64,000 nt of DNA from assembly GCF_020966775.1 (NCBI RefSeq), contig NZ_JAJKFV010000011.1, positions 299,023 through 363,022 on the forward strand. Reading direction: 5' to 3'. The notes under the pieces were generated by a model, which was not told the origin of the DNA, did not search any database, and worked only from the letters and a program-made list of their open reading frames with translations. This document shows, in pieces, positions 47,673 through 50,665 of the stretch. The position numbers were made by a program, and so were the translations under genes. How positions within the stretch are numbered: the first letter of the stretch is position 1; every line of letters starts with the position of its first letter. The DNA is from Rhodopirellula halodulae. GTDB taxonomy: Bacteria; Planctomycetota; Planctomycetia; Pirellulales; Pirellulaceae.

Positions 47673-48356
47673 ATGTCCGATCCGTTTGGTTCCCCGTTTC
47701 CGTCCCTGCATGATCAGAACCTAAACGCGCAACACGCCATGGCTTCGGATCATCTTCGCGCCAGCGCGGCTTCTTATCAAAGCTATCAACGCCAACGTCA
47801 GATGACGCTGGGCGATTTGCTGCTTGAAAACCGAATCGTGTTCATGCAAGGCGAGATTCACTACGCCAATGCAAACGAAATCGTGATGAAGCTGTTGTAT
47901 CTTCAGAGCGAAAACCGTCGCAAAGACATCCACCTTTACATCAATTCGCCCGGCGGCAGCGTCACCGCCACCTTGGCGATCTATGACACCATGCAAATGC
48001 TGTCTTGCCCAGTCGCGACCTACTGCGTTGGGGAAGCTTGCAGCGGAGCCGCCGTGTTGTTGATCGGTGGTGCCAAAGGCAAACGCTTCTGCCTGCCCAA
48101 CAGCCGCGTGATGATGCACCAACCTTTGGGCGGTGTATCTGGACAAGTCAGCGACATCGAAATCCAAGCCGCGGAAATGTTCCGTTACCGCGACAAGCTG
48201 AACGAGATCATCGCTAGCCACTGCGATAAATCAGTGGAACAAATCGCGAAAGACACCGATCGCGACTTCTTCTTGGACGCACAACAAGCCAAAGAGTACG
48301 GGCTCGTTGACGACATCTTGCTGGGAACTCCCGCAGGCGAAAACGAAGAGGACTGA
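47673..48356 (+). CDS. clpP: ATP-dependent Clp protease proteolytic subunit (first copy)
   Basis: Serine peptidase subunit of the Clp machine. The 227-residue protein carries a 40-residue N-terminal extension rich in Gln and Ser (may include a propeptide). It then has [21 protein letters not shown], the catalytic Ser in CVGEACSGAAVLLIGGA, the His in SRVMMHQPLGG and the Asp in IAKDTDRDFFLD. The Ser context CSG differs from the usual ASM, but the triad is complete. It lies 58 bp before a second clpP on the same strand, which suggests a mixed ClpP1P2 barrel as known in Mycobacterium and Listeria. Confidence 0.95.
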   Translation: MSDPFGSPFPSLHDQNLNAQHAMASDHLRASAASYQSYQRQRQMTLGDLLLENRIVFMQGEIHYANANEIVMKLLYLQSENRRKDIHLYINSPGGSVTATLAIYDTMQMLSCPVATYCVGEACSGAAVLLIGGAKGKRFCLPNSRVMMHQPLGGVSGQVSDIEIQAAEMFRYRDKLNEIIASHCDKSVEQIAKDTDRDFFLDAQQAKEYGLVDDILLGTPAGENEED

Positions 48357-48414: not shown

Positions 48415-49002
48415 ATGCCCGTTATCCCTTACGTGGTCGAAAGCAACGGCCGCGAAGAACGCACCTACGACATCTACAGCCGGTTGCTCAAGGACCGCAT
48501 CATTTTCTTGGGCCAGCAGGTCGACGACCAAATCAGCAACGCGTTGGTCGCTCAGATGTTGTTTTTGCAAGCGGATGATCCCAAGAAGGACATCCACATG
48601 TACATCAACTCACCCGGCGGAAGCATCACCGCAGGCATGGCAATCTACGACACGATGCAGTTCGTTTCGTGCGATGTGGCCACCTACTGCATCGGACAAG
48701 CCGCCTCGATGGGCGCCGTGCTGTTGACCGCCGGTGCCAAAGGCAAACGCTTTGCACTGCCCAACGCCCGGATCATGATTCACCAACCGCTGGCCGGCAT
48801 GCAGGGAACCGCTCGCGAAGTGGAAATTCATGTGGCGGAACTGCGTCGTATCAAGCAACGCATGAACGAAATCATGATCGAGCACACCGGTCACTCGCTC
48901 GAGAAGATCGAAGAAGACACCGATCGCGACCGTTTCATGTCGGCTGATGAAGCACGTGAATACGGATTGATTGACAAGGTTGTCAAAAGCATCGACGACT
49001 GA
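48415..49002 (+). CDS. clpP: ATP-dependent Clp protease proteolytic subunit (second copy)
   Basis: A 195-residue canonical ClpP. It has [41 protein letters not shown], the catalytic Ser in [19 protein letters not shown], the His in [14 protein letters not shown], and the Asp in [16 protein letters not shown]. Unlike the first copy it has no N-terminal extension and matches the E. coli length. It is followed by a strong hairpin at 49020. No clpX or clpA follows in the window. Confidence 0.96.
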
Positions 49003-49019
49003 TCAACGATGATGTAAGG

Positions 49020-49042
49020 CGGGGCCGAATCCCTCGGCCCCG
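49020..49042 (+). terminator. GC-rich hairpin after the clpP pair
   Basis: CGGGGCCGA pairs perfectly with TCGGCCCCG around the loop ATCCC, 18 bp after the second clpP stop. It is followed by TCTTCG, not a long U-run. Position and 9-bp stem make it the likely end of the clpP transcript. Confidence 0.75.
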
Positions 49043-49078
49043 TCTTCGCATCGGTCGTCCAAGACAGGATGTCTCGCC

Positions 49079-49153
49079 GCCCCCTTCGTCTAGCGGCCCA
49101 GGACATCGGCCCATATCAGGCCGGAAACGCTCGTTCGAATCGGGCAGGGGGTA
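49079..49153 (+). tRNA. tRNA-Glu-like gene with abnormal anticodon arm
   Basis: Acceptor stem GCCCCCT/AGGGGGT with discriminator A, D arm GTCT-AGCGGCCCA-GGAC as in tRNA-Glu, T arm GCTCG-TTCGAAT-CGGGC, and a 4-base variable loop AAAC all fold correctly. The anticodon arm does not: TCGGC/GCCGG leaves a 9-base loop, CCATATCAG, or a 6-bp stem with loop CATATCA lacking U33. The normal tRNA-Glu loop would be 7 bases with TTC as anticodon. CCA is not encoded. Either this is a decayed tRNA or a tRNA-like RNA with another job; all other arms look preserved. Confidence 0.6.
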
Positions 49154-49246: not shown

Positions 49247-50665
49247 TCACGCCTTCTCCAAACGCGATGTCCACTGCTGGATCTGCTCGCGAACTCGATC
49301 CGGTGCGGTCGAACCTTCGCTGCGGAACGCGGCGATCGCATTGGCGGTCCCCAACACTTCGTAAACCGATTCGTCGATCTGATCGCTGAGGGATCGATAC
49401 GTTTCGATCGGCAAGTCGGACAACGCGACGCCGGTCTTCATGGCTTCTTGCACGATGGCACCAACCAAGTGATGAGCGGTCCGCTGCGGCATGCCTCGAG
49501 CGATCATCCATTCCATCAACGTGGTCGCGTCGAGATAACCCTTTTCGATGCGTGCCGAGATCGATTCACGCTTCAGCTCCGCGCCGCGAACAATCGGTGC
49601 GGCCAACTCCAGCATCGCTCGCGTGGTGTCAAACGCGTCGAACAATGGCGGCTTGTCTTCTTGCAAATCACGGTTGTAGGCCAGCGGCAGGTTTTTGATC
49701 AGCAACATGAGTGTTTGCAGTGCACCCATCACCCGAGCCGACTTGCCGCGAGTCAACTCCAACGTGTCCGGATTGACCTTTTGTGGCATGATGCTGCTGC
49801 CGGTGCAGAAAGCTTGCGGGATTTGAATGAAGTCGTACTCGACGGTGCTCCACAAAATCCACTCTTCCGCCCAACCGCTCAGGTGAGAGGCGATCATCGA
49901 CATCACAAACGTCGATTCCACCACAAAATCGCGGTCGCTGCTGGTGTCCAAACTATTCGCGGTGATGCCATCAAAATCGAGCGCCGCGGCGGTGTGTCGG
50001 CGATCAATCGGCAACGTTGTTCCCGCGACCGCAGCGATCCCCAGCGACGATTGATTCACCCGTCGACGACAATCCGCGATGCGTTGACGATCCCGTTCGA
50101 ACTTTTCGATATAAGCCAACCAATAGTGCGAGGCGAGCACCGGTTGTGCCCGCTGCAGGTGCGTGTAGGCGGGTAGCACGATGTCAAAGTCATTTTCACA
50201 TCGCGAAAGAAAAGCGGCTTGCAGATCGACCAGCAACGCATCAATTTCATCGAGGGATTGCCGGATCCACATCCGGGTGTCCGTGCTGACTTGGTCGTTC
50301 CGACTGCGCGCCGTATGCAGCTTTCGTCCGGTGTCGCCAATGCGATCAATCAAAGCTTGTTCAACATGCATGTGGATGTCTTCCAGCTCGAACCGCATCG
50401 GCAACTCGCCTCGGTCCAGCTCGCCTCGGATGACCTCCAAAGTGTCCTTGATGAGTTTGAATTCCTCTTCCGTCAACAAACCAACTTCTCGCAGCATGTC
50501 CGCGTGAGCGATCGATCCGCGAATGTCGTGTTCGTACAACCGCGAGTCGAAACTGATGCTTTCGGCGTAGGCTTCCAGCCGGCTATCGGTTTCAGCTTGG
50601 AAGACACCACTTCGAGACGGACTGGCCACGGTTGACTTTCTGGGTGAGAGGTTTCGAATGTTCAA
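49247..50665 (-). CDS. argH: argininosuccinate lyase
   Basis: Splits argininosuccinate into arginine and fumarate, the last step of arginine synthesis. The 472-residue protein belongs to the fumarase/aspartase superfamily and shows the signature GSSIMPQKVNPD near residue 290, the DIHMHVEQALIDRIG and HTARSRNDQV blocks of ArgH, and the catalytic Ser in the flexible loop of the signature. The N-terminal 20 residues are low complexity. It stands alone, with a divergent gene starting about 30 bp upstream, so the two promoters overlap. No other arg gene is nearby. Confidence 0.96.
   Translation of the reverse strand: MNIRNLSPRKSTVASPSRSGVFQAETDSRLEAYAESISFDSRLYEHDIRGSIAHADMLREVGLLTEEEFKLIKDTLEVIRGELDRGELPMRFELEDIHMHVEQALIDRIGDTGRKLHTARSRNDQVSTDTRMWIRQSLDEIDALLVDLQAAFLSRCENDFDIVLPAYTHLQRAQPVLASHYWLAYIEKFERDRQRIADCRRRVNQSSLGIAAVAGTTLPIDRRHTAAALDFDGITANSLDTSSDRDFVVESTFVMSMIASHLSGWAEEWILWSTVEYDFIQIPQAFCTGSSIMPQKVNPDTLELTRGKSARVMGALQTLMLLIKNLPLAYNRDLQEDKPPLFDAFDTTRAMLELAAPIVRGAELKRESISARIEKGYLDATTLMEWMIARGMPQRTAHHLVGAIVQEAMKTGVALSDLPIETYRSLSDQIDESVYEVLGTANAIAAFRSEGSTAPDRVREQIQQWTSRLEKA

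Follow-up and report, generated by a model that had tools for sequence, protein, structure and literature searches.

A conserved tRNA-Glu-like gene with an aberrant anticodon arm in Rhodopirellula and its relatives probably carries glutamate for a non-protein use

What is a bacterial tRNA gene for, if its body is that of an intact tRNA-Glu and its anticodon arm is not that of a decoding tRNA? This question is raised by a 75-nt gene at positions 49079-49153 (plus strand) of the window, i.e., the whole stretch of 64,000 nucleotides of Rhodopirellula halodulae DNA analysed here. An earlier note on this DNA had described a clean tRNA-Glu cloverleaf with an anticodon arm two bases too long, and had offered three meanings: a pseudo-tRNA, a frameshift-suppressor-like tRNA, or a tRNA kept for charging by GluRS outside translation. 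Sequence and fold confirm the description. We conclude that this is a real, conserved, non-decoding tRNA-Glu lineage, and that the odd tRNA probably carries glutamate for a non-protein use, most likely heme production.

ARAGORN placed one tRNA exactly at 49079-49153 and labelled it tRNA-Ile(TAT). The gene has no encoded CCA and forms a cloverleaf with arms of 7/4/5/5 and the T loop TTCGAAT. The 5' strand of the acceptor stem (49079-49085) pairs with 49146-49152 and includes a G1.U72 wobble; the 3' strand together with the discriminator base A73 spans 49146-49153. The glutamate determinants named in the excerpt of PMC9976931 used here are U34, U35, C36, A37, U11-A24, U13-G22:A46 and the absence of base 47. 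The segment at 49088-49104 carries identity elements of this set, and the augmented D helix (U11-A24, U13-G22, A46, no base 47) is present in the window gene. The variable loop AAAC (4 nt, 49125-49128) contains A46 and lacks base 47, an arrangement with the ending A46-C48 that recurs in 44 of the 46 odd-loop rows described below. The T arm (49129-49145) has a derived stem, GCTCG/CGGGC, with a U51.G63 pair; GCTCG is found in 27 of the 46 odd rows, and the T stems of normal CUC genes differ from it (e.g., AGGGG).

The anticodon arm can be read in two ways, both given in the earlier note, and both hold. In the 5-bp reading, the strands TCGGC (49106-49110) and GCCGG (49120-49124), whose pairing is kept by two-sided changes among relatives, enclose the 9-nt loop CCATATCAG (49111-49119), with U35-C36 at 49116-49117. 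Alternatively, an outer C-G pair is added to the stem and the 7-nt loop CATATCA remains, which has no U33. The minimum-energy fold is a full cloverleaf of the latter kind (loop CAUAUCA, closing stem CGGCC/GGCCG, -30.1 kcal/mol); as its z-score is -1.09, the folding energy by itself is not distinctive and is no proof. Bases 34 and 37 are both A in the 9-nt reading, so that the GluRS determinant U34 is missing, and in the 7-nt reading A33 and C37 stand where a decoding loop of 7 nt would have U33 and a purine.

The Rfam tRNA model did not report the window gene at its gathering score, at E<=10 or in a scan of the whole genome, which gave 75 other places, and it had no hit on any of the five odd-loop loci tested, i.e., the window gene and four relatives (L001, L004, L006, L009 and L013). 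Two normal genes served as controls: the model gave 59.3 bits to the tRNA-Glu(UUC) gene from the window's genome (L031) and 58.0 bits to a relative's tRNA-Glu(CUC) gene (L015). This silence, the extreme changes in the anticodon loop and the absence of the gene from some relatives would suit a slowly decaying tRNA-Glu(CUC) pseudogene, the first of the three meanings. However, decay should damage all arms and let them drift at the rate of the flanks. Among the 13 genomes of the window's genus (g1; 78 genome pairs), the RNA outside the anticodon arm has a mean identity of 97% (minimum 92%) and the anticodon arm one of 82%, in comparison to 52% for the 100 bases upstream and 46% for the 100 bases downstream; for shuffled sequence the aligner reaches 38%. 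The stem also covaries. In 29 distinct anticodon stems 98.6% of the cells are in standard pairs, against 79.0% (sd 2.1) and a maximum of 86.9% in 2000 shuffles of the stem partners, the observed set being slightly favoured since the length of the variable loop was picked from three by pairing in the parse. Moreover, the gene occurs in several genera, including all 13 genomes of g1 and 13 of 14 of g86, and two of its loop positions never change (see below). Thus, a pseudogene seems very unlikely, and the odd tRNA is, as far as sequence comparison can tell, neither decay nor an accident of one genome.

Which parts of the anticodon loop are kept? The loop set consists of 46 odd-loop rows from the pattern and BLAST-type searches, after identical repeats of 17 further genomes had been dropped, and it holds 23 distinct loops, nine of 7 nt, seven of 8 nt and seven of 9 nt. 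With positions assigned from the 3' side and a 5-bp stem, U35-C36 is present in 23 of 23 distinct loops and in 46 of 46 rows, and UC stands at 35-36 in all nine 7-nt loops, which are free of register ambiguity. Since the family search patterns left the loop unconstrained, the search itself cannot have produced this constancy; the order-wide 7-nt-loop pattern, which fixed TC, was excluded from the count. Other positions vary: over the 23 loops base 34 is T in 11, A in seven and C in five, base 37 is C in 11, G in six and A in six, and the second loop base is T in 12, C in nine and G in two, and six of the nine distinct 7-nt loops lack U33. Bases 32 and 38 are pairable in all 23 loops, which only one of 2000 shuffles reaches; the normal loops TTCTCAG and CTCTCAG are pairable there as well, so this trait is old.

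A parsimony count on the GluRS tree, built from 40 genomes of which 38 have such a gene, gave 7, 6, 8, 0, 0, 11 and 6 changes at positions 32 to 38, respectively, and seven changes of loop length. The contrast of 38 changes at five loop positions with none at 35 and 36 has a chance of about 3e-6 under one rate for all seven positions. As 35-36 are constrained anyway on decoding branches, the count was repeated on 25 odd-loop rows (29 changes elsewhere and none at 35-36; 6e-5) and on 19 rows unable to decode in the usual way (25 and none; 2e-4). All three probabilities are crude, as they come from one gene tree, midpoint-rooted and with one long branch, and assume equal rates. In this pattern, the body, U35-C36, A46 and the absent base 47 show the mark of purifying selection, and loop length, U33 and bases 34 and 37 do not.

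Anticodon loops of 8 and 9 nt resemble those of +1 frameshift suppressors, and ARAGORN reads the anticodons of 14 orthologs as Ile (three), Met (three), Asp (seven) or Asn (one). The gene could on these grounds be a decoding tRNA with special coding, either a suppressor, as the earlier note had suggested, or a tRNA for GAU, AUA or some other codon. However, because the labels vary in this way, the apparent anticodon is not conserved; it differs even between sister species. Genomes that decode with such a tRNA should share its anticodon, and the 13 genomes of the genus have seven distinct loops, with 7-nt and 9-nt forms side by side. Together with the frequent absence of U33 from the 7-nt loops, this makes special decoding highly improbable. 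tRNA-Pyl, which does decode, has a 6-bp anticodon stem, as has the window gene in one of its readings, but the window gene has no CUA anticodon. In g86 the loop CTTTCCG keeps U33 and UUC, and this tRNA might still be able to decode.

As for its occurrence, the odd tRNA is carried by 13 of 13 genomes of g1, at pairwise identities of 84-100%. A BLAST-type search of 60 related genomes gave matches in 45: the best match was the odd tRNA in the 12 other g1 genomes and in one genome of g12 (G023), and 12 of 23 order-level genomes had a tRNA-Glu match. A pattern scan of named genomes produced ten records, from Rhodopirellula solitaria, R. europaea, R. rubra, R. sallentina, Neorhodopirellula pilleata, Aporhodopirellula aestuarii, Rubripirellula obstinata, Roseiconus nitratireducens, Stieleria tagensis and Planctomycetes bacterium K23_9. 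With the body fixed and the anticodon arm open, 109 of 241 family genomes matched; a relaxed pattern, given to 79 of the 132 non-matching genomes (mostly the more complete ones), matched 47 of these. A further BLAST-type search covered 23 genomes, 22 of which had so far given no match, and detected the gene in all ten g86 genomes among them and in G201. The figure for g86 thus consists of three genomes found by pattern and ten by BLAST-type search, the fourteenth (G239) lying outside both. This group is Stieleria-like, since the S. tagensis sequence (L074) is identical to that of G241. The other matched members of the family have an ordinary CUC loop (TTCTCAG, CTCTCAG, CTCTCAC or TTCTCAA) or are of the UUC type. 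The earlier note had proposed a search for the same arm in other planctomycetes and had made its idea depend in part on the conservation of the intact arms in related genomes; the arms are conserved throughout the genus, and related odd forms are found in other genera of the family.

In g11, all ten genomes searched with the relaxed pattern gave UUC-type matches only, and in G211 (g82) the relaxed pattern and the BLAST-type search gave only a chance match, which means that not every member of the family needs the odd RNA. In the case of G211 an assembly gap is possible, since its UUC gene was likewise unmatched. Among 396 genomes of the order, loops of at least 8 nt on the odd-tRNA body occur in 13 and 7-nt loops that lack U33 and keep UC in six; all 19 genomes belong to the 113 family members of this sample and none to the 283 outside the family, in scans whose patterns require the D arm of the window's family.

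Several groups show further peculiarities. In g82, which is Rubripirellula-like, the odd tRNA with the derived T arm is found in some members; others combine different T-arm types with the normal TTCTCAG loop, and the searches of G211 gave no CUC-lineage gene. The ten g86 loci L118-L127 all combine the odd tRNA with an expanded D loop (GTTGGCC, GTTTGGCC or GTTAGGCC) and the T loop TTCAAAT. Within the window's genus, five loci (L008-L011 and L014, from G009, G003, G012, G008 and G006) have U1.U72 and the discriminator G73, in comparison to G1.U72 and A73 elsewhere.

The place of the gene shows its origin. In the window it begins 76 bases past the stop codon of clpP2 (48415-49002, plus strand), which is preceded by clpP1 (47673-48356, plus strand), and argH (49247-50665, minus strand) points toward it, as the convergent downstream neighbour here and in the nearest relatives; the three names were given from sequence, and the two clpP genes served as syntenic anchors in tblastn comparisons with relatives. 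With the window ClpP1 and ClpP2 as queries, tblastn located the odd tRNA behind clpP2 in g1, g12, g76 and g82, and the ORF list of a g80 genome (G190) has clpP2 and clpP1 beside it. At the same place after clpP1-clpP2, a genome of g14 (G025) carries a normal tRNA-Glu with the anticodon CTC, so the odd RNA descends from tRNA-Glu(CUC). By gene order, it is the positional ortholog of a CUC-type tRNA-Glu that is still ordinary in a related genus.

The same arrangement would also suit an RNA that donates no glutamate, be it one that binds GluRS as a decoy or regulator, or one that marks the end of the clpP transcript for processing; the conserved contacts to GluRS are as compatible with binding as with charging, and a tRNA stands after clpP2 in all six of these groups, in normal form in g14. 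Nevertheless, tblastn found no ClpP match in the examined flanks of Roseiconus, Stieleria and eleven g86 loci, and genes other than clpP2 lie beside the odd tRNA at the g86, Roseiconus and g79 loci. In addition, the acceptor stem is intact, the discriminator base is present, and a decoy would presumably need less conserved T and D arms. A function without glutamate donation is therefore rather improbable in our judgement. Consensus scanning found no sigma-70-type promoter or terminator for the window gene; a G+C-rich hairpin without a T run lies right after clpP2 (49014-49047). In one genome (G163, g79), the odd tRNA, with the loop TCTACTCGA, adjoins a gene for MnmH, tRNA 2-selenouridine(34) synthase (L157:1671-2771, NCBIfam). 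The target of MnmH is U34 of tRNA-Glu, tRNA-Gln and tRNA-Lys.

On the GluRS tree, odd loops turn up in two regions of the family, split by a starred branch (99/98). In the region that includes the window, the genus g14, whose loop and T arm are normal, sits inside a set of odd-loop genera (92/97, unstarred, for placing it with g80 and g82), so that decoding was either lost several times or regained once. A lineage-wide split, with tRNA-Glu(UUC) for the ribosome and a second GluRS-charged tRNA-Glu for tetrapyrroles alone, arisen at least twice in the family and with U35-C36 kept each time, has in our estimate an even chance of being correct.

Could such a tRNA still be charged with glutamate? 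Of the determinants, U35, C36, A46 and the absent 47 are kept in the odd tRNAs, and U34 and A37 are lost, as are the decoding features of loop length, U33 and purine 37. Because U34 and A37 are not conserved, charging may be weak, which speaks against efficient charging of the E. coli type. The GluRS of the window's genome (TIGR00464, 450.6 bits, cut-off 289.95; NCBIfam) is canonical, and its alignment to solved enzymes spans both domains. Its R399 aligns with R358 of T. thermophilus GluRS, the position is Arg in 40 of 40 GluRS sequences, and R358 was reportedly found by Sekine in 2001 to read C36. The genome also has GlnRS (TIGR00440, 681.4 bits, cut-off 425.8; NCBIfam) and GluQRS (NF004315, 258.9, cut-off 250; TIGR03838, 259.0, just below the cut-off of 276.7). 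A dedicated second GluRS was considered and rejected: among the matches listed for the 46 genomes searched, one GluRS-type protein is present in each of 40 genomes. G160 and G173 had no PF00749 match among the matches listed. A short GluQRS-type protein is absent, among the matches listed, from G162, G163 and G179 (g79) and G252 and G255 (g3), all of them odd-loop genomes; as it is missing from some odd-loop genomes and present alongside the normal tRNA, it does not track the odd loops.

U35-C36 are determinants for AspRS as well. In the five genomes with G73 and U1.U72 (G003, G006, G008, G009 and G012) the loop reads A34-U35-C36, and an excerpt of PMC9976931, on a related enzyme, gives G73 and the anticodon as Asp determinants, so that a shift of identity to aspartate might be imagined in this subgroup. 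Yet these tRNAs have A in place of G at base 34, they retain the augmented D helix specific to Glu and they lack base 47, and we give such a shift almost no credence. The tRNA-Glu of E. coli likewise has G73.

The conserved GluRS contacts combined with the loss of decoding are what would be expected where glutamylation is needed and ribosomal use is not. We hold with considerable confidence that the gene is under selection, does not decode, and acts as a glutamate carrier or a ligand of GluRS, and the third meaning of the earlier note, charging by GluRS outside translation, is well supported by sequence, through a conserved body and U35-C36 next to a drifting loop length, U33, base 34 and purine 37. 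The rest of the explanation we favour somewhat, in its full form: a former tRNA-Glu(CUC) has left the ribosome and is kept as a glutamate acceptor, with GluTR as its main user. The odd tRNA would be expressed and charged by the canonical GluRS, proper pairing in the ribosomal A site would be impossible for it, and GAA and GAG would be read by the separate, normal tRNA-Glu(UUC). Its Glu-tRNA would then pass to a non-ribosomal user, most likely glutamyl-tRNA reductase, the first step of the C5 tetrapyrrole pathway, and heme precursors would thereby draw on a pool free of competition from EF-Tu and the ribosome.

A normal tRNA-Glu gene is at hand: tRNA-Glu(UUC) lies at G000:C29:750486 of the window's genome. 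Two more genes, labelled Glu (TTC and CTC) by ARAGORN, stand in an array on contig C2, and their sequences are unlike the chromosomal type. This array (L203, G000:C2:386800-396400) holds 35 tRNA genes by ARAGORN in 9.6 kb on a single strand, with Rfam scores of 15 to 66 bits; its contents, which include Ile(TAT), Glu(CTC) and Glu(TTC), run parallel to the chromosomal set, and it looks like a tRNA array of mobile-element or phage type.

GluTR is chosen as the best-known non-ribosomal user of Glu-tRNA in bacteria with the C5 pathway. It is encoded in the window's genome (hemA; TIGR01035, 345 bits, cut-off 209.55; NCBIfam) and in all of the 46 genomes searched. However, the same holds for relatives whose CUC gene is normal or missing, so co-occurrence does not single GluTR out, and no tetrapyrrole gene was recognised beside the odd tRNA among the ORFs of nine loci, read by eye. 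The charged tRNA might instead hand its glutamate to another non-ribosomal user, such as a peptide, lipid or cell-wall transferase or an unknown enzyme. Up to charging this reading shares all the evidence of the GluTR explanation, and the derived T stem GCTCG/CGGGC may tune escape from EF-Tu. On the other hand, no candidate enzyme was recognised in the ORFs of the nine loci, and in a limited search for a LanB-type user Lant_dehydr_N (PF04738) matched in none of the 46 genomes, the control genomes being equally without a match, so that this zero does not speak against such a user. We consider another user unlikely and retain GluTR as the main one.

Dedicated tRNA copies that feed a non-ribosomal pathway are known from the non-proteinogenic tRNA-Gly of Staphylococcus, which serves peptidoglycan, although amino acid and enzyme are different there and the anticodon loops are ordinary. 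The closest precedent, by analogy and as far as the excerpts of the two papers go, is the aberrant plastid tRNA-Glu (trnE) of Balanophora, in which the anticodon arm is altered, the determinants for GluRS and GluTR are kept and a tetrapyrrole-only role is proposed (PMC13128298, PMC10268348). The planctomycete gene resembles it, on this partial account, in its altered arm, in its kept charging determinants, all but U34 and A37, alongside lost decoding features, and in the decoding by other tRNAs. It differs in that Balanophora has a strongly reduced organelle genome and the bacteria have large ones (6.6 Mb for the window's genome) with a second, normal tRNA-Glu; moreover, in the planctomycetes a normal-loop positional ortholog is still present, and decoding can be followed through more than one loss. 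In the excerpt seen of PMC5423948, heme synthesis is argued to be the main role of tRNA-Glu2 (CUC) of Coxiella burnetii, whose deletion strain grows more slowly. That gene is likewise a second bacterial tRNA-Glu of the CUC type, but the same text regards it as probably acquired by transfer, with an ordinary CUC anticodon, and decoding is not structurally abolished. For Acidithiobacillus ferrooxidans, the consulted part of PMC4284751 describes competition of EF-Tu and GluTR for Glu-tRNA and isoacceptors that differ in use; it reports no altered anticodon loop, and the specialisation is opposite, as GluTR does not accept one of the four isoacceptors. No earlier description of such a bacterial gene was found in the open-licence literature searched, with part of the search directed at GluRS identity or tRNA-Gly, and the portion seen of a review on missing tRNA genes (PMC8007984) shows none.

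For annotation, these genes are a hazard: the ARAGORN names of the 14 orthologs are Ile, Met, Asp or Asn, the Rfam tRNA model reports none of five tested, and wrong isoacceptors may stand in automatic annotations of these genomes. For the biology of the family, if our explanation is true, tRNA-Glu would have had its roles in decoding and in tetrapyrrole synthesis separated naturally in bacteria with large genomes. The family would then offer a graded series of forms, from the normal CUC loop through C37 forms, 8-nt loops and 9-nt loops to loops without U33, which shows which anticodon bases persist once decoding no longer constrains them, and the partition of Glu-tRNA between EF-Tu and GluTR would become testable by deletion of a single gene.
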